Shown here piece after piece: positions 20,137-44,622 of a stretch of DNA of 44,622 nucleotides. The first letter of the stretch is position 1. Each line of letters opens with the position of its first letter. Made by a program: the position numbers and the translations under genes. Under the pieces are notes generated by a model, which made no database searches, had not been told where the DNA came from, and worked only from the letters and a program-made list of their open reading frames with translations. This DNA is from Bacilli bacterium (lineage in GTDB: Bacteria > Bacillota_I > Bacilli_A > RFN20 > CAG-826): contig JAKSVK010000008.1 in the NCBI GenBank assembly GCA_024408075.1, positions 1-44,622 of the forward strand, read 5' to 3'.

Positions 20137-20465
20137 CCATCCAAATGAAAACACCTAATTTTTGTAACTAACTGTTGATATCCCTATCAGCAATAGTTAC
20201 TGGTGTTTCATCCTCTGTTGGATGGCCTCTGAATCAAATTAAATAATTTGTGTGGAGCGTGAGTGATAAGGTAAGTCTATAAACCGTGTCCTAAAGGTCG
20301 CCATTTGTTTATAGATATTTTCACCTTCTGGGCGATGCTTTCCACATTGGTAGATCCTAACACGTCCAATCTACCAGTAAATATTAAGGTGTCCTATTGT
20401 TTACCTGCGTATGGTCGACTTTGCTTTAAGCTAGTTCATAGCGCCAATAGTCTGTTAATATTTAC
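20137..20465 (-). ncRNA. Structured leader RNA, copy 1
   Basis: Minus-strand leader starting at 20465 and running into the 60+115-residue gene pair. The 302 bases 20164-20465 match 21821-22122 with no difference seen. Stems: GTAAATATTAA/TTAATATTTAC (20377-20387 with 20455-20465), TGGTAGAT/ATCTACCA (20348-20376), TCTATAAAC/GTTTATAGA (20276-20315) interleaved with TCGCC/GGCGA (20298-20302 with 20331-20335) as a pseudoknot, and a long end hairpin closed by CCATCCAA/TTGGATGG (from 20137). Not a family I recognise. Confidence 0.6.
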
Positions 20466-21797: not shown

Positions 21798-22122
21798 CCA
21801 TCCAACTTAAAACACGCATTGTAACTAACTGTTGATATCCCTATCAGCAATAGTTACTGGTGTTTCATCCTCTGTTGGATGGCCTCTGAATCAAATTAAA
21901 TAATTTGTGTGGAGCGTGAGTGATAAGGTAAGTCTATAAACCGTGTCCTAAAGGTCGCCATTTGTTTATAGATATTTTCACCTTCTGGGCGATGCTTTCC
22001 ACATTGGTAGATCCTAACACGTCCAATCTACCAGTAAATATTAAGGTGTCCTATTGTTTACCTGCGTATGGTCGACTTTGCTTTAAGCTAGTTCATAGCG
22101 CCAATAGTCTGTTAATATTTAC
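21798..22122 (-). ncRNA. Structured leader RNA, copy 2
   Basis: Minus-strand leader of the DUF1016-like nuclease. Bases 21821-22122 match copy 1 exactly. The last ~23 bases (21798-21820) have drifted from copy 1, yet the closing CCATCCAA/TTGGATGG stem is intact in both, which suggests the structure matters. Length to the nuclease ATG is about 367 nt. Both copies end precisely at their outermost stem. Confidence 0.6.
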
Positions 22123-22451: not shown

Positions 22452-22478
22452 TTGGCACTCAAGCAGGGCGAGTGCTTG
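22452..22478 (+). promoter_or_regulatory. CIRCE-like inverted repeat, site 1
   Basis: TTGGCACTC-N9-GAGTGCTTG. The CIRCE consensus for the heat-shock repressor HrcA is TTAGCACTC-N9-GAGTGCTAA, so 15 of 18 arm bases match and the 9-nt spacing is exact. Its right arm runs into the -35 of a promoter. Confidence 0.6.
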
Positions 22479-22501
22479 CTTCTTCTTCTTCTTCTTATAA
22501 T
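22476..22501 (+). promoter_or_regulatory. Promoter with (CTT)6 microsatellite spacer
   Basis: -35 TTGCTT (22476-22481) and -10 TATAAT (22496-22501) are separated by 14 nt of CTT repeats (six units, 22479-22496). One more CTT unit would give the optimal 17 nt. Predicted weak or off in this sequence. It leads into the Ig-like surface-protein gene. Confidence 0.55.
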
Positions 22502-22507
22502 TATCAA

Positions 22508-22865
22508 CATAAGAGGGGGCTCCCCAAAAGGGAGAGACGCTAATGGTCAAGGCGTCTTAGCTTAATTAAGGATTCGCCTCTTTGTTTGTGATAACGAGAC
22601 AGTTAAGAATCTACGTGCACATGACTCTTCGTACTCTCTCCGAGTCTCAAACGTCAGCGTAGCTATCATTGGTCCAATAGGGGACATATACAATCGGTAG
22701 CGAACTGGCAAAATCTTTTAGTCGATTATTCATTAATATGGCTGATATTGGACGCCACTTTGATTAGTGAATGAATTGACTTTACATTAAAAGATTTATT
22801 CATACTCACTTGGCTAAATAACCAAAACGGCCTTGGAGACTTTTATCGAAAGGAGAGAAATTATT
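22508..22865 (+). ncRNA. Structured 5' leader of the surface-protein gene
   Basis: About 358 nt with clear stems: CTCCC/GGGAG (near 22520-22533), GACGC/GCGTC (22535-22556 region), GACTC/GAGTC (22623-22647 region), and a long nested arm in which AAATCTTTTA (22710 region) pairs with TAAAAGATTT and ATTCATTAAT pairs with ATTAGTGAAT. It ends at the ribosome binding site of the gene. Family not recognised; it may be a regulatory leader. Confidence 0.4.
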
Positions 22866-25800
22866 ATGAATAAATTATTTACAAAGATCGTCGGTGCAGC
22901 GTTAGGTCTCACCATGGCGATCGGAGTTGGTGTTGCTGTCGGTATTGGGGCTAGCAAAGAAGCTGTACCTGTACATGCTGCTGCCACTGATGGAACAGAA
23001 CAAGTTCTATTTAATAGTTCGGATTCATATGCCGCTAGTACAAGCTATACAACAAAAGGCGCTATAAAGTTTAAGAACAGTGCGACTAATTCGTATTCTA
23101 ACCCTACTAGAATCTATGCTAATAATACGTTCACTATTGAGATAGCAGACTCGAGTTTGGCTACTTCAATTAACGGCGTTGTTGTTTCTGTTGCATCCGG
23201 TTATACAAGCATATCCCATACATGGGCTGTAACAAGTGGAACTGGTTCGATAAGTGGCACTTCAAGTGGATCGTCATTGACTGGAACAACAAGCGGGACT
23301 GTTACTGGTTTAACTATTAAACCAGGTTCGCAAGCTAGATGGAACTCGGTAACTGTTTATTATGCCGGCGCATCAACAAAAACACTTTCTAGTATTTCTG
23401 TTGAAACAGCACCTACAAAAACAATATATTCCGAAGGAGAAAAATTCGATCCAACTGGGTTAGTAATTACTAGAAATTACACAAATCCGTCTAGCAGTGA
23501 TACATACACTTATGCTAATCACACTAGCGAATTCTCATTTAGCCCATCAACATTGACAGAATTATCGACTAGTGATACCAAAGTAACAATTACATATGGT
23601 GGTAAATCAACTTCGCAAGCTATTACAGTTACTGCTCCGAAAACACCAGCAAGCGTTTCATCTTCTGGACAAACCACAACATTTGACGCTGGTGACACAT
23701 TTGCTTATGGTGGTACTTTAACCGCTACTTACACAGATTCTACAGGTAAAACTGTTTCCCCAACATCATTTAAAATTGGCAATGCTGGAATTAATCCAAC
23801 AAGTGCCGGAACAGTAATTACTCCGGGGTCAACTGCGCTTTCCAGGGATGACCACAATGGAAAGACAGTCTATGTGCTTTATACCGAAAATAACACGACT
23901 GTTTATACAAGCTATGTTATTACTGTTAACAAGATTAGCAAGATCACTTTAGATCCTACTGTCACGAGTTCTTTCCCTTACCAAGGAATCACTTTAACGG
24001 TGACTGATGGAACATTAACAAATAAGACTGATTATCGTGTTTATAAAAATCAGACCATGACCATTAAATCAACAGTTGGAGATATGGCAAAAATCGAATT
24101 CACTTATGATAGCGCATCTTATGATGGAGGTGGATGGTCGTCTGCATATACCCCTAACGCTAGTACCTGGACGTCTCCAACTGCTAGTGGCGAGCAAGCC
24201 AGAATTACAAAAATCATTGTTACTCTAGCTTCTGCTGATCCACTCGTTGAATTAGACGTAAGCTCTGCTACATCAGTTAATATGCTTGATGGAGATACAA
24301 ATTCAACAGTAAAAGTTCTTGCCAAAAACATCGATGATTATACCGCTTGGGTTTTAACATTTGATGAAGATGATGATACAGGATTATCTTCTTCTGATTA
24401 TGTCACAGTAGTCCCAGGAGCATTCTCAAATAATGTTTCGACATTTGCTATTACTGCTAAAAAAGTTGGTTCAACAATCTTAAATATTCAATTAGATGGA
24501 ACTGATTGTGAAGATACAGTTAAGATTACTATCGGTCAAAAGCCTGCATCTATTACAATCACTCATAGTGATGTCTATGAAAAAGACAACAAACTCCAAC
24601 TTGATCTTAAAGCAGGTGGAGCTTATAAACAAATGACATTTAGTGGAAAAGATATCCGCGGTAATACATATGCAGTTGCCGCCGCTGATGTTACTCCATC
24701 AATTCAAAGTGGTAGTTCCTATGTTAGCGTTAGTGGAACAAGAATTACCCCAACCTCTACTGCTGGAACAGCTGTTGTTAGATATGAATTAAATGATGAT
24801 ACCGATGTTTTTGTTGATTTAACTGTCAATGTTATTAGCGATAGAAATGTAAGCGTTAATAACATTACATACGTCGCTTCAGCTAGTGGTGTTCAAGGTG
24901 AACCATTAAAAGTCAGTGATATTATTTCGGCAACTTCTACCACAACACTTTTCGGTGAAACAGGAACAATTGCTGATGGTGAATATTTATTTGCTTACAG
25001 CAATAATAGAAGTATAGCTGTTGGATTAGGCAATTTCGTTTATGAAATTACTGATGATACTTTAGACGCTGGTGAAACCGAAAATAGAGAAATCTTTGTC
25101 TTCGTTTCATTTGATGAATCTTATGTATCTTCAACACATGTTGATATCGAAGTTGCAGATAGACCATTAACTGCTATCTCATTAGATACAGGTGCTTCTT
25201 TAAGTTTAAATAGAAACAAATCTCATCAATTAGAAGTAAGTTACACTCCTTATAATACAACAAGTACTAGGGCGGTTACTTATGCTATCACTGCTTCTAG
25301 TTCAGAGAGTTCAATCACTGTTTCCGATAGTGGTTTAATCTCTGCTGGTAGCAAAATTGGCTCAACTGCAACTATCAAGGTTACAAGTCAATTTAGTGCT
25401 GATATCTGTGCCTCTGTTAATGTTACAGTTACACGTGAAGCAATGACTATCACATATGATATCCCAGAAGAATGGGTTGAAACTAGTGGGTCTGATTTAG
25501 CTGTTGGTGACCAAGTTATCTTAACTGGTGTTAAGAACAGCGTTACTTATGCTGCTGGAACATATTCAAGTGGCAATAACGTTCCTGCTGATACTACAAA
25601 CACACTAACTGTTTCCGGAACAAAAGTTACAGGTGTTGTTTCAACAATGATTTATACTTTAGAAGAAGGAACAGTAGACGGAAGTGTTGCTTTCAAGGAT
25701 TCAAGCGGAAAATATCTTTATGCTGCAGCTACTGGCAGCAACAATATGAAATCGCAAGATAAGATTGATGCTAATGCTAGCTTTACAATTGATGAAAACG

Positions 25801-26360
25801 GAAATGTAGTAGCTACAGAATCTAGTAACAGAAATAGAATGCGTTATAACAATTCAAACACAAGTAATTTATTTAGTTGTTATGGAAATGATAATACAGG
25901 AACCACAATAACATTTTATAAATTAACTGGTGGCTCAGACACAATCACTGTTGGTGACGATTTATTCAATGATTTAATGGATTATTACTATAGTGGTGAT
26001 TTCTTTAAATGCGATCCAGATGGAGCAACATTTGATGGAGATGGTTGGAAGGATGTTGGTGAAGTTCTCGCTGATTATAAAGATACTTATAAACTTAATT
26101 ATGCAAGAGCAAATGCTAGCGGTAATGAAGTAGAACAATTCTTAGCAACATATGATTATGTTGTCGCCAAATATGGTGCTTCCTATGACTATCTAGGAAG
26201 AATTGCTTCTGGCAAGATTTCCGGATCGGCATTAGTAAATCCGTTAGTGAACATTATTGGTGAAAACACTAATTCAGTTGTAATCATTGTTATTATTTCA
26301 ATGATTTCAATAACTTCTATTGGTGGTTACTTCTTCTTACGTAAACGTAAAGAGATTTAA
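22866..26360 (+). CDS. Large surface protein with bacterial Ig-like domains
   Basis: 1164 residues. A signal peptide (KIVGAALGLTMAIGVGVAVGIGA, ending near VHAAA) is followed by Ser/Thr-rich beta domains. At least three look like bacterial Ig-like folds: SSISVETAPTKTIYSEGEKFDPTGLVI (about 175-260), PLVELDVSSATSVNMLDG (about 460-550), and PLTAISLDTGASLSLNRNK (about 775-860). The C-terminus has a membrane helix (VVIIVIISMISITSIGGYFF) and basic tail RKRKEI, without an LPXTG motif. Likely adhesion or surface coat. ATG 22866 follows AAAGGAGAG. Its promoter carries a CIRCE-like site and a CTT microsatellite. Confidence 0.8.
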   Translation: MNKLFTKIVGAALGLTMAIGVGVAVGIGASKEAVPVHAAATDGTEQVLFNSSDSYAASTSYTTKGAIKFKNSATNSYSNPTRIYANNTFTIEIADSSLATSINGVVVSVASGYTSISHTWAVTSGTGSISGTSSGSSLTGTTSGTVTGLTIKPGSQARWNSVTVYYAGASTKTLSSISVETAPTKTIYSEGEKFDPTGLVITRNYTNPSSSDTYTYANHTSEFSFSPSTLTELSTSDTKVTITYGGKSTSQAITVTAPKTPASVSSSGQTTTFDAGDTFAYGGTLTATYTDSTGKTVSPTSFKIGNAGINPTSAGTVITPGSTALSRDDHNGKTVYVLYTENNTTVYTSYVITVNKISKITLDPTVTSSFPYQGITLTVTDGTLTNKTDYRVYKNQTMTIKSTVGDMAKIEFTYDSASYDGGGWSSAYTPNASTWTSPTASGEQARITKIIVTLASADPLVELDVSSATSVNMLDGDTNSTVKVLAKNIDDYTAWVLTFDEDDDTGLSSSDYVTVVPGAFSNNVSTFAITAKKVGSTILNIQLDGTDCEDTVKITIGQKPASITITHSDVYEKDNKLQLDLKAGGAYKQMTFSGKDIRGNTYAVAAADVTPSIQSGSSYVSVSGTRITPTSTAGTAVVRYELNDDTDVFVDLTVNVISDRNVSVNNITYVASASGVQGEPLKVSDIISATSTTTLFGETGTIADGEYLFAYSNNRSIAVGLGNFVYEITDDTLDAGETENREIFVFVSFDESYVSSTHVDIEVADRPLTAISLDTGASLSLNRNKSHQLEVSYTPYNTTSTRAVTYAITASSSESSITVSDSGLISAGSKIGSTATIKVTSQFSADICASVNVTVTREAMTITYDIPEEWVETSGSDLAVGDQVILTGVKNSVTYAAGTYSSGNNVPADTTNTLTVSGTKVTGVVSTMIYTLEEGTVDGSVAFKDSSGKYLYAAATGSNNMKSQDKIDANASFTIDENGNVVATESSNRNRMRYNNSNTSNLFSCYGNDNTGTTITFYKLTGGSDTITVGDDLFNDLMDYYYSGDFFKCDPDGATFDGDGWKDVGEVLADYKDTYKLNYARANASGNEVEQFLATYDYVVAKYGASYDYLGRIASGKISGSALVNPLVNIIGENTNSVVIIVIISMISITSIGGYFFLRKRKEI

Positions 26361-38696: not shown

Positions 38697-39479
38697 ATGA
38701 AAAAGAATGAACAAAATGTTTCTGAAGTAGTTTCTCCAGAAATTGAAAAAAAGAAGAAAAGAAAACATATTGCCCTTGAAATTGTTGAATGGACTGGGGT
38801 TGCAATTTGCGTTGTTTTTATTGCCTTTATTGCTGTTTTTGCTAGCAAAAGTCCAAGCGATAAAACTAGTGCATCATTATTTGGATACGAAACTCGATTA
38901 GTTGTATCTGGCTCTATGGACCAATCTAATGACAGCTATTATGATGGAACTGGTTGGAAAGTAAAACGCATTAGAACCGGGAGCTTAATATTTATTAAAA
39001 ATACTCAGGATGTTACTCAACTAAGCGTTGGTGATGTTATTACTTTCTTTGATCCTAGTAAAGGCCCATCAGTTATTGTTACCCATAGAATTCAAGATAT
39101 TACATTAAATTTAGAGGATTTATCTATTAGCGAAATTATTACTCATGGTGATAACAACGATATAGGTGTTACTGAAAAAATTACTCCAGGAAATATGATA
39201 GGTAAAGTTGTAAATACCTCATTCTTCCTTGGCCAATTATATACAAAAGTTATATCAAACAAGGCTGTTATGGCAGTAATTATTATTGTTCCTTGTGCTG
39301 CAATTATAGGCTTAGAATCTTATAAGATTGTTAAAATTGTTAAACAAGATAAAGCTGAAAGAGCGGCATCGGGACAAATGAGCAGCGAAGAACAAGAAAT
39401 TTATGATTTGGAAAAACAAATCGCTGAAATCAAAAAGAAGAAAAAATCCAAATCAAAAGACAAAGAGGAGAAAAAATGA
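38697..39479 (+). CDS. sipW: SipW-type signal peptidase I
   Basis: 260 residues. ER/archaeal-type signal peptidase with a Ser-His dyad: S73 in VVSGSMD and H130 in VIVTHRI, then THGDNND (150 region). Membrane helices flank the catalytic domain (about 33-50 and 190-210), and the C-terminus is a Lys-rich coil. SipW enzymes process TasA/camelysin-like surface proteins, and several candidate substrates lie next to it here. It starts 2 bp after the upstream stop and overlaps the next small gene (ATGA). Confidence 0.9.
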   Translation: MKKNEQNVSEVVSPEIEKKKKRKHIALEIVEWTGVAICVVFIAFIAVFASKSPSDKTSASLFGYETRLVVSGSMDQSNDSYYDGTGWKVKRIRTGSLIFIKNTQDVTQLSVGDVITFFDPSKGPSVIVTHRIQDITLNLEDLSISEIITHGDNNDIGVTEKITPGNMIGKVVNTSFFLGQLYTKVISNKAVMAVIIIVPCAAIIGLESYKIVKIVKQDKAERAASGQMSSEEQEIYDLEKQIAEIKKKKKSKSKDKEEKK

Positions 39480-41660: not shown

Positions 41661-41689
41661 TTGACACATTTTTATTATTTTAATATAAT
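41661..41689 (+). promoter_or_regulatory. Perfect consensus promoter of the 763-residue surface protein
   Basis: TTGACA (41661-41666), 17-nt spacer, TATAAT (41684-41689). Both hexamers match the housekeeping consensus exactly, so strong constitutive expression is predicted. It has no CIRCE-like site or microsatellite, unlike the promoter at 44082-44134. Confidence 0.85.
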
Positions 41690-41714: not shown

Positions 41715-44006
41715 ATGAATAAAAAACTCTTTGCTCCTATTTTATCTATAGCTGCATTAGCAGCTGTTAGCATTGGAGCAACATATGCTTTATTCACTGA
41801 CAAGAAAGAAGCAAAAGTAGACATTACTGCTGGTAAAGTCCAATTAGGCATGACCTCTAGTTTAGAATTTGCTAGAAGTCGCTACGAAGACGAAACACCT
41901 TATAATGCTAAAACCAGCGAAACTAGTGCTGTCTATGAAAATGGCAATACTGCCACTGTTACTTCTGGTGCTACTGGTCTTACTGTCGAATTAGACAGAA
42001 TGACACCAATGGATGATATTGGTTTGTCTGTGAATGTTGTCAATTCCAGCAACGTTAAAATTAAATGGCGTGTTGGTATTGAATTAAACGGAGATTTGGT
42101 TCCTGCTTTAGAAGTTGTATTCAATGGTATTGATTATTCAACAACTTTAAAAGAAAGGAAAATTTACACTAAGTGGTCAGAAGTAATTGATCCAAGTGTT
42201 ACAAAAATTGTCGAAGATGGCGTTCTTCACATTGCTTTCCCTGATCGTGGTGATGCTGATAATAAGTATCAAGAAAAGACAGCAACAATTAAATTTTTTG
42301 TTGAAGCTGTACAAGGAAATGCGACCACTAGTGATCCTTCAAATTATGGATTTTTAGATTCCTATATTGTTGATAAAGGATTAGAAACCGAACACTGGGT
42401 TCATGAAATTTCAAACCTTCAAGAATATAGAAACATGGCTACATTTGCATTCAAAGTTGCTGATGGAACATATGCAATACCTGCTGAAGGTGCCCACTTT
42501 TGTGATGATAAAACAGTTTATCAATTAAAAGCTTTGGATTTAGATTGTTTAGGTCAATCTCCATGGTTCAATTTGTCAGAAGGAAAATATTTTGAAGTCG
42601 TACCTGAAAAAACAGTCAATAACTTTATTTTTACTGGTATTTTTGATGGTTTAAATCATACAATTAGTAATCTTGCTGCAAATCTTGGAATGGGACAAAC
42701 TGTTTCAGGAACAGACTGCGATTTAGGTGGCTTGTTCTGTGGAATAGCCGATGCCGAAGTTAAAAATGTTATTCTTGATGAAGTAACTATTGAAAACTCA
42801 GAAGCCAAACCAGCAGGACTTATTGCTGCTGGCTATCCAAACAAACTTGCTGCGTATTCAACAGGTTCTCATGAAATTAAATTTGAAAACATCACTATCA
42901 ATGAGAATTGTTTTGTACATGGCAAGCAAAATGCTGCTGCATTTATTGGTAGTGCTAGAGATGCTGTAAACTTGACATTTGTCGATTGCGTTAATAATGC
43001 TGAAGTATATACGGTTGGATCAAATACAGGTGCATTTGCTGGAAGTGTTTCTGGCGGAAGCGGTAGAGTCATGAAATTTATTAGATGCACAAATAACGGA
43101 AATGTTCGTGCAGATAACATAGTTGGTTCATTCGTTGGCTCACAAAGTGGTGGTGGAACTCGTACATTTGAAGATTGTGCTAATAATGGAGAAGTTTTCT
43201 CATTTGCAAATGTCACTTGCGGTTTGTACAACGGACAAATTGCAAATAGCGAAACTGTTAATTATGTTGGAACAAACATCAATAGTGGCGACCTATACGT
43301 TCCTGTAAATAAAAAAGATAATGTTAAGGATAAAGGTGATTTCAAATTATTGACTGACCTTACACAAATTCATTATGTTGGTGAACCTGATAATGCTACT
43401 AAAGAAGATTTATTTAATAAATTTGTTAAAGAAAGAGCATTTGCTTCATTAACTTTAGGATTTGACGAAACAACACATAAAATTACTGCAAGTGCTGCAA
43501 ATATTCCTGCATACACCAAAGTAAGTCTAGATGCTAGTATTGGACCTATTGATTCATTTGATGTCGCTACAAGCCATATGATTTCTAGCGGTGGAGTTAC
43601 AGCATTTACTGAAGAAGCTGAATCCATTTCAAATTTATCTTTCCAAGAAATGAAGCGTGTTGGCTGGGTAAAACCAAGCGCTGAAACAGCAACTGGAACT
43701 TATCAAGATGCTGGAACAATTAAAGACAAAGAAAGATATGAATGGTCAATGATCCCATTTGAACATGCTGATGATGCAAAATACACAAGTGGATATCATA
43801 TTGATTCAGAAGGCGGATACTTTGTTATAAATAACAAAGGCAAAACTGATGTTTTTGGTCAGATTTTCAAAATCTGGTTAAAATTAGAAATTAGAGTTTG
43901 CTTATATGACGCCGACAACAATTTAGTTGGTTATGGATATTGGGGCTCACCAGTACCTCAAGGTGGTGCTCAAACATATTTCTCACCTGTTTATCAGGCA
44001 GATTAA
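41715..44006 (+). CDS. Camelysin-like surface protein, paralogue 2, with GLUG-like repeats
   Basis: 763 residues. Residues 1-205 repeat the signal peptide and camelysin-like domain of paralogue 1 (GATYALFTDKKEAKVDI, SRYEDETPYNAK, LDRMTPMDDIGLSVNV, FVEAVQGNA). The following ~350 residues contain beta-helix or GLUG-like units (GLFCGIADAEVKNVILDEVTI, AAFIGSARDAVNLTFVDC, GAFAGSVSGG, GSFVGSQSGGG), as in adhesins. A C-terminal domain of ~200 residues follows. Likely a displayed, fibre-linked adhesin. Ribosome binding site GAAAGGAGAG. The final residues lack a membrane anchor. Confidence 0.8.
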   Translation: MNKKLFAPILSIAALAAVSIGATYALFTDKKEAKVDITAGKVQLGMTSSLEFARSRYEDETPYNAKTSETSAVYENGNTATVTSGATGLTVELDRMTPMDDIGLSVNVVNSSNVKIKWRVGIELNGDLVPALEVVFNGIDYSTTLKERKIYTKWSEVIDPSVTKIVEDGVLHIAFPDRGDADNKYQEKTATIKFFVEAVQGNATTSDPSNYGFLDSYIVDKGLETEHWVHEISNLQEYRNMATFAFKVADGTYAIPAEGAHFCDDKTVYQLKALDLDCLGQSPWFNLSEGKYFEVVPEKTVNNFIFTGIFDGLNHTISNLAANLGMGQTVSGTDCDLGGLFCGIADAEVKNVILDEVTIENSEAKPAGLIAAGYPNKLAAYSTGSHEIKFENITINENCFVHGKQNAAAFIGSARDAVNLTFVDCVNNAEVYTVGSNTGAFAGSVSGGSGRVMKFIRCTNNGNVRADNIVGSFVGSQSGGGTRTFEDCANNGEVFSFANVTCGLYNGQIANSETVNYVGTNINSGDLYVPVNKKDNVKDKGDFKLLTDLTQIHYVGEPDNATKEDLFNKFVKERAFASLTLGFDETTHKITASAANIPAYTKVSLDASIGPIDSFDVATSHMISSGGVTAFTEEAESISNLSFQEMKRVGWVKPSAETATGTYQDAGTIKDKERYEWSMIPFEHADDAKYTSGYHIDSEGGYFVINNKGKTDVFGQIFKIWLKLEIRVCLYDADNNLVGYGYWGSPVPQGGAQTYFSPVYQAD

Positions 44007-44081: not shown

Positions 44082-44108
44082 TTGGCACTCACCTACTAAA
44101 AGTGCTTG
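44082..44108 (+). promoter_or_regulatory. CIRCE-like inverted repeat, site 2
   Basis: TTGGCACTC-N9-AAGTGCTTG, with arms nearly equal to site 1 (22452-22478) and the same 9-nt spacing as CIRCE. Its right arm overlaps the -35. Confidence 0.55.
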
Positions 44109-44134
44109 ACTCTCTCTCTCTCTCTCTCTAGAAT
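44106..44134 (+). promoter_or_regulatory. Promoter with (CT)10 microsatellite spacer
   Basis: -35 TTGACT (44106-44111), 17-nt spacer made of CT repeats (ten units, 44110-44129), -10 TAGAAT (44129-44134). The spacing is optimal, so this promoter is predicted on in this sequence. About 50 nt of leader follow. Confidence 0.65.
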
Positions 44135-44189
44135 AAGAGTAAAGAAGAAATAAATATTTATATTTGTTTCTAGGAAAGGAAAAGTTTTG

Positions 44190-44622
44190 ATGAACAAAAA
44201 ACTCTTTGCTCCAATTTTATCTATTGCTGCACTAACAGCTGTTAGTATTGGAGCTACCTATGCTTTATTCACTGACAAGAAAGAAGCAAAAGTTGACATT
44301 ACTGCTGGTCAAGTTAAAGTAGCAATGACTTCAACAATCGATTTTGCAAGAAGCCGTTATGAAGATGCAACTCCATTTGATGCAGTCGAAAATGCCGAAG
44401 GAACTGAATTTGATGCAGTTTACGAAAATGGTAACACTGCTAAAATTACTTCTGCTACTACTGGTGTAGCCGTTACTTTAGACAGAATGACACCAATGGA
44501 TGACATTTCTCTAAAAGTGAATGTTGAAAACAATAGCAACGTCAATATTAAATGGCGTCTTGGAATCGAACTTAAAGGTGAATTAATCCCTGCATTATTA
44601 GTTAAATTTGATAATGTTGATT
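44190..44622 (+). CDS. Camelysin-like surface protein, paralogue 3 (cut by the window end)
   Basis: At least 144 residues, open at the right edge. Signal peptide MNKKLFAPILSIAALTAVS and the mature start ALFTDKKEAKVDITAGQ match paralogue 2 closely, followed by SRYEDATPFDA and LDRMTPMDDISLKVNV. Ribosome binding site AGGAAAGGA. Probably another SipW substrate. Its promoter has the CIRCE-like site and CT microsatellite, so its expression may switch at random. Confidence 0.8.
   Translation, partial: MNKKLFAPILSIAALTAVSIGATYALFTDKKEAKVDITAGQVKVAMTSTIDFARSRYEDATPFDAVENAEGTEFDAVYENGNTAKITSATTGVAVTLDRMTPMDDISLKVNVENNSNVNIKWRLGIELKGELIPALLVKFDNVD

Follow-up and report, generated by a model that had tools for sequence, protein, structure and literature searches.

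A CIRCE-like operator joined to a microsatellite promoter spacer recurs upstream of mostly surface genes in one family of uncultured gut Bacilli

CIRCE, the class I heat-shock operator of HrcA, has the form TTAGCACTC-N9-GAGTGCTAA (PMC3842655). Phase-variable promoters with an SSR in the spacer are described for Haemophilus hifA/hifB (cited in PMC11868660), and SSR-spacer phase variation for the intergenic repeats of Mycoplasma hyorhinis (cited in PMC5179023); Neisseria also has such promoters. Gut bacteria carry a further kind of promoter switch, the invertible promoters known as invertons (cited in PMC11868660). In the open-licence literature searched, we found no description of CIRCE or HrcA combined with an SSR or with phase variation; each half of the arrangement reported here is known, and their fusion and family-wide use are undescribed there.

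The promoters described here are like HrcA/CIRCE in most of the arm sequence, N9 loop, position of the operator at the promoter, an encoded HrcA, and a paired CIRCE before hrcA. They are unlike it in three respects: the right arm ends in TTG, which serves as the start of the -35; the spacer is a microsatellite; and the targets are mostly surface genes, not chaperones. Like SSR-spacer promoters, they place a repeat between -35 and -10, step by whole units around an optimum, precede surface genes, and occupy several loci per genome. Unlike those promoters, they have a stress-repressor operator fused to nearly every switch and interchangeable repeat units within one architecture, and they belong to uncultured gut Bacilli. 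With invertons they would share promoter-level phase variation in gut bacteria, but they would use repeat slippage with no recombinase implied, and their inverted repeat is a 27-bp operator, not a pair of recombination ends. The groES and clp promoters of Chloroflexi and Lacticaseibacillus have the same TTAGCACTC-N9-GAGTGCTTG and overlapping TTG -35; they differ in having a non-repetitive spacer and in driving heat-shock genes.

The window, meaning the whole stretch of DNA analysed, is 44,622 nt long. An earlier note, made from the letters alone, had described at 44082-44134 a CIRCE-like operator running into a -35 TTGACT, a 17-nt CT spacer and a -10 TAGAAT; this architecture held exactly. On the forward strand, the module reads TTGGCACTC-ACCTACTAA-AAGTGCTTG-A-(CT)10-AGAAT. 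The operator, TTGGCACTC-N9-AAGTGCTTG, has its arms at 44082-44090 and 44100-44108, and the -35 hexamer TTGACT (44106..44111) takes its first three bases from the end of the right arm. The (CT)10 microsatellite (44110..44129; also called by TRF) supplies the whole of the 17-nt spacer (44112-44128), and its final T begins the -10 hexamer TAGAAT (44129..44134), a TANNNT in the 17-nt register. A Shine-Dalgarno-like AGGAAAGG (44172-44179) is followed by an ATG at 44190. A search of the 1.04-Mb genome gave three exact matches to the two-arm pattern, against none in the reversed control, and the operator-repeat arrangement at 44082 is far beyond chance.

The earlier note had also claimed a camelysin-like surface gene downstream, and this held: the ORF at 44190..44622 (+), truncated by the contig end, encodes a TasA/camelysin-like exported protein with a SipW-dependent signal peptide, as identified by TIGR04088 (28.5 bits against a cut-off of 19). 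It lies 5 kb from a SipW-type signal peptidase (38697..39479, +; TIGR02228 above cut-off, NF046067 below cut-off), within a run of TasA/camelysin-like paralogues. One of these, at 41715, has a contrasting promoter, a perfect TTGACA-N17-TATAAT (41661..41689, +) without CIRCE or repeat. A 6.9-kb contig (G000:C25, hereafter C25) carries more TasA-like paralogues, of which two have an operator-repeat promoter of their own. With the window ending partway through a TasA-like gene and more paralogues lying on C25, the assembly has probably interrupted a tandem array at this locus. The paralogue at C25:4325 (L214:4324-4400) is about 91% identical downstream to the 44190 gene and has a C12 tract in the slot of (CT)10, so that the unit differs and the architecture is the same.

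We regard the operator as very likely CIRCE, on the grounds of chaperone-type targets elsewhere, sites at hrcA, clp and htpG in the genus, and a single HrcA; HrcA binding and repression are inferred. The search for hrcA that the earlier note had proposed found one copy in the genome, on contig G000:C1, encoding a protein with the DNA-binding domain and similar to the solved Thermotoga HrcA 1STZ, and the hrcA promoter carries CIRCE-like sites. Canonical CIRCE sites, with TAA at their end, stand in the genus before hrcA (as a pair) and before clp-like and htpG-like genes; no repeats were found near canonical CIRCE in the genus loci read (hrcA, clp-like, htpG-like). These sites share their arm consensus with the 44082 operator, as do 68 related sites catalogued below, but have the canonical AA ending. 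Compared with TTAGCACTC-N9-GAGTGCTAA, the left arm and the first seven bases of the right arm fit nearly all 68 sites, with an N9 loop, and the last two bases of the right arm are TG in module sites versus AA in canonical CIRCE. It is possible that the TG ending lowers HrcA affinity below that for canonical CIRCE; we have no binding data.

A GTDB-wide exact scan for TTAGCACTC-N9-GAGTGCTTG returned at least 113 sites. A di- or trinucleotide repeat was present at 29 of the 113, all in MAGs titled Erysipelotrichaceae, Bacillales, Bacilli or, once, Clostridia; several of these titles refer to samples from ruminants or to RUG (rumen) isolates. The other sites (Lacticaseibacillus, Chloroflexi, Ruminococcus and others) have ordinary spacers, except for short A8/T8 runs in two. 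Where checked, the non-repeat sites have the same overlapping -35, with the TG ending at groES and clp promoters in other phyla, and precede genes for GroES, Clp ATPase or peptidyl-prolyl isomerase (named from the protein sequences), which are typical HrcA-type targets. Only one class of CIRCE promoters has the repeat; that it is tied to every CIRCE was ruled out by the canonical sites that lack one.

Five operator-repeat modules were identified in the genome, and in all five the operator is followed directly by a microsatellite and then a -10. Three contain the exact pattern (44082, 22452 and C25:1947), each running into a microsatellite. The other two, near-exact and found with looser patterns, are C25:4325, with a C12 spacer, and one on contig C6, with a (CTT)7 spacer. 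The repeats are thus the (CT)10 at 44082 together with (CTT)6, (CTT)7, a second (CT)10 and C12. Only four (CT)>=7 or (CTT)>=5 arrays exist in the genome, all inside these modules. The predicted spacers are 17 nt (44082), 17 nt (C25:1947), 20 nt (C25:4325), 14 nt (22452) and 17 nt (C6). Judged from spacer length, without expression data, the assembly would hold three ON and two OFF promoters.

The second module within the window comprises an operator TTGGCACTC-N9-GAGTGCTTG (22452..22478, +; pattern search) and an SSR promoter (22476..22501, +; TRF) with -35 TTGCTT (22476-22481), (CTT)6 (22479-22496) and -10 TATAAT (22496-22501). Its 14-nt spacer is one unit under 17, and the promoter is predicted to be OFF or low. 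Downstream lie a conserved structured 5' leader (22502..22865, +) and a gene for a 1164-aa exported protein of the MNKLFTKIA... signal-peptide family (22866..26360, +).

An alignment of homologues of this leader revealed covarying hairpins and a 3' part that can pair with the start codon. Leaders of the MNKLFTKIA class (260-490 nt) have two covarying hairpins, with the conserved loop GUGCACAU and the loop UGGUCAA, and their segment UUUAUUCAUA is able to base-pair with UAUGAAUAAA around the start codon; one of the pairs is A-U ten times and G-C ten times. An Rfam search of the leader gave no convincing family match, and the leader may be a new regulatory RNA, a suggestion we offer tentatively. 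Separately, we note two copies of the Rfam COG3943 RNA (RF02941) on the minus strand, at 20151-20261 and 21812-21918 (95 and 90 bits).

The arrangement recurs well beyond this genome. With one mismatch or fewer, the pattern is present in 17 of 19 genomes of the genus, and an SSR follows every site examined. Exact sites occur in eight genera, all of one family (196 family genomes and 279 order genomes were searched), and none was found in sampled genomes of the order's other seven families. As sampled, the combination is restricted to one bacterial family, of uncultured, mostly ruminant-gut bacteria. Within the family, 56 of 59 distinct exact sites directly adjoin an SSR, and the remaining three have short, degenerate or decayed pyrimidine spacers. 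The reverse test, in which arrays were listed in the 19 genus genomes, does not presuppose the operator: in 28 of 29 distinct (CT)8+ or (CTT)5+ arrays the left flank is CIRCE-like, and its loop is 9 nt long in every case. The lone exception resembles coding sequence, and two further hits, outside the 29, are the reverse strand of AAG-type modules. This two-way association of operator and array rules out a chance association, and general SSR richness of the genomes was excluded, as almost no long CT or CTT arrays exist elsewhere in the genus. In one genus (g7), hrcA itself was a candidate for a CIRCE-SSR promoter; the repeat promoter there drives a small membrane protein instead, and hrcA has its own paired CIRCE.

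Products driven by the modules across the family, from dozens of genes, are mostly exported and mostly surface proteins. They include the MNKLFTKIA...VGVGVAV signal-peptide family (some 600-1300 aa long and preceded by leaders of about 260-490 nt), TasA-like proteins, and lipoproteins with collagen-like, LRR_5 or Flg_new domains, as well as zinc-ribbon membrane proteins and some unknowns.

We compiled a catalogue of 68 modules in which the -10 was called blind to spacer length, as the nearest TANNNT with at least 4/6 matches; no -10 could be called in four of the 68. The units used are CT, CTT/TTC/TCT, AAG, CTC, AC/CA and C. Several unit types being in use, a CT-specific function was ruled out, and the diversity of units in the same slot (CT, CTT, TCT, AAG, CTC, CA, C) argues that repetitiveness itself is kept. 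Trinucleotide spacers measure 11, 14, 17, 20 or 23 nt, with a mode of 17 and 37 of 38 in register with 17; dinucleotide spacers measure 11, 13, 15, 17, 19 or 23 nt, with 15 and 17 equally common and 24 of 25 in register. The observed lengths therefore step through 17 nt one unit at a time. The number of bases between repeat and -10 varies among junction designs, and 25 of the 27 distinct di- and trinucleotide designs allow exactly 17 nt with a whole number of units; two are out of register. Binomial P values for the register are 7.7e-7 (trinucleotides) and 0.006 (dinucleotides). These are optimistic, as designs were treated as independent though the sequences are related.

Repeat number also differs between otherwise identical DNA. 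Two 8.09-kb contigs (L216, G015:C18; L217, G125:C20) align over 8094 bases with no mismatch, and the sole gap is one CTT unit in the promoter. They come from separate MAG assemblies, in bins assigned to different genera, and at least one of these bins probably holds a misplaced contig. Among orthologous promoters with flanks 92-98% similar, we observed 4 versus 6 CTT, 5, 6 or 7 AAG, and 8 versus 10 CT units. Repeat number changes faster than the surrounding sequence. A MAG assembly reports one consensus length per site, and mixtures may be hidden.

All testable sequence-level predictions of the earlier note held. It had proposed a genome scan for the operator followed by a short tandem repeat, and the combination recurs across related genomes, not randomly; it had predicted variable repeat number and spacer alleles of 15 or 19 nt, and natural alleles of both lengths exist. 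Its view of the repeat as a CT microsatellite was too narrow, as CTT, AAG, CTC, CA and poly-C are also used, and it saw one promoter where our analysis found a family-wide set. Its proposal of phase switching with repressor control at the -35 is supported by sequence, with HrcA binding, ON/OFF behavior and the transcription start inferred.

We propose that these elements are likely phase-variable, HrcA-repressed promoters of mostly surface genes; HrcA binding, ON/OFF expression and the link to stress are inferred. The sequence-level evidence, which is shown, comprises the architecture, its clade-wide recurrence, length polymorphism, the 17-nt register and a close match to the CIRCE of chaperone genes. 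Slippage of the microsatellite would lengthen or shorten the spacer from -35 to -10 by one repeat unit. A spacer 2 or 3 bases from 17 would be expected to make a sigma-70-type promoter much weaker, and hence adding or dropping one unit should switch expression: about 17 nt would be active, and one unit off (14, 15, 19 or 20 nt) weak or off. HrcA bound to the operator, which covers the -35, would exclude RNA polymerase and would come off under heat or chaperone overload. GroEL-dependent HrcA activity is established in other bacteria; by inference for this clade, it would link release to protein-folding stress. Output would need two keys: (i) a permissive repeat length, which is heritable and random; and (ii) HrcA off the DNA, which is environmental. 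Because the operator lies upstream of the repeat, slippage would leave it undisturbed and the two controls would be separable.

Three other explanations merit consideration. Another repressor or activator might bind the CIRCE-like site, leaving the repeats as real switches without HrcA. The TG in place of AA at the end of the right arm, as the -35 requires, and the choice of surface genes over chaperones as targets speak for this. We consider it unlikely, as the arms and N9 match the hrcA, clp and htpG sites of the same genomes, only one protein with HrcA or its DNA-binding domain was found, and the TG form also stands at chaperone-type promoters (groES, clp) in other phyla. Less likely still is that the promoters are fixed, with HrcA regulating, a low-complexity spacer giving a favourable DNA shape, and copy-number change incidental. 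This would accommodate the pyrimidine-rich, non-perfect spacers of L196 and L199 and the pyrimidine-rich majority of units, but not AAG and CA units or perfect repeats of differing sequence in the same slot. The single-unit polymorphism between otherwise identical 8-kb contigs also argues against it, and other HrcA promoters work without such a spacer.

A mobile or gene-conversion promoter cassette, in which the association of operator and repeat reflects copying, not regulation, is suggested by paralogous loci with near-identical leaders and signal peptides. However, the sites are unlike one another in N9 loop, upstream flank, repeat unit and downstream junction, the genes come from several unrelated families, and shared flank beyond the promoter is largely absent between pairs; we regard this explanation as very unlikely. 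A phase-variable, HrcA-repressed promoter remains our preferred reading.

A bolder version is that the whole family has rebuilt its HrcA regulon as a stress-gated contingency system. Random ON/OFF choices stored in microsatellites would stay silent under HrcA and be revealed on chaperone overload, and the CTT/AAG class, with its start-codon-sequestering leader, would add a third, possibly temperature- or signal-dependent gate. We lean slightly against this version on present evidence.

With naturally occurring spacers of 11 to 23 nt and a range of repeat units, these promoters provide a test set for promoter spacing rules, and ON/OFF fractions would be readable straight from metagenomic reads. 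On our reading, heritable random switching by slippage and deterministic stress repression by HrcA, two principles of regulation usually treated in isolation, would be joined in a single element of 50 bp, of which dozens of copies are in use among the uncultured gut bacteria of this family. The prediction is that a chaperone-sensing repressor would control surface diversity in these organisms.
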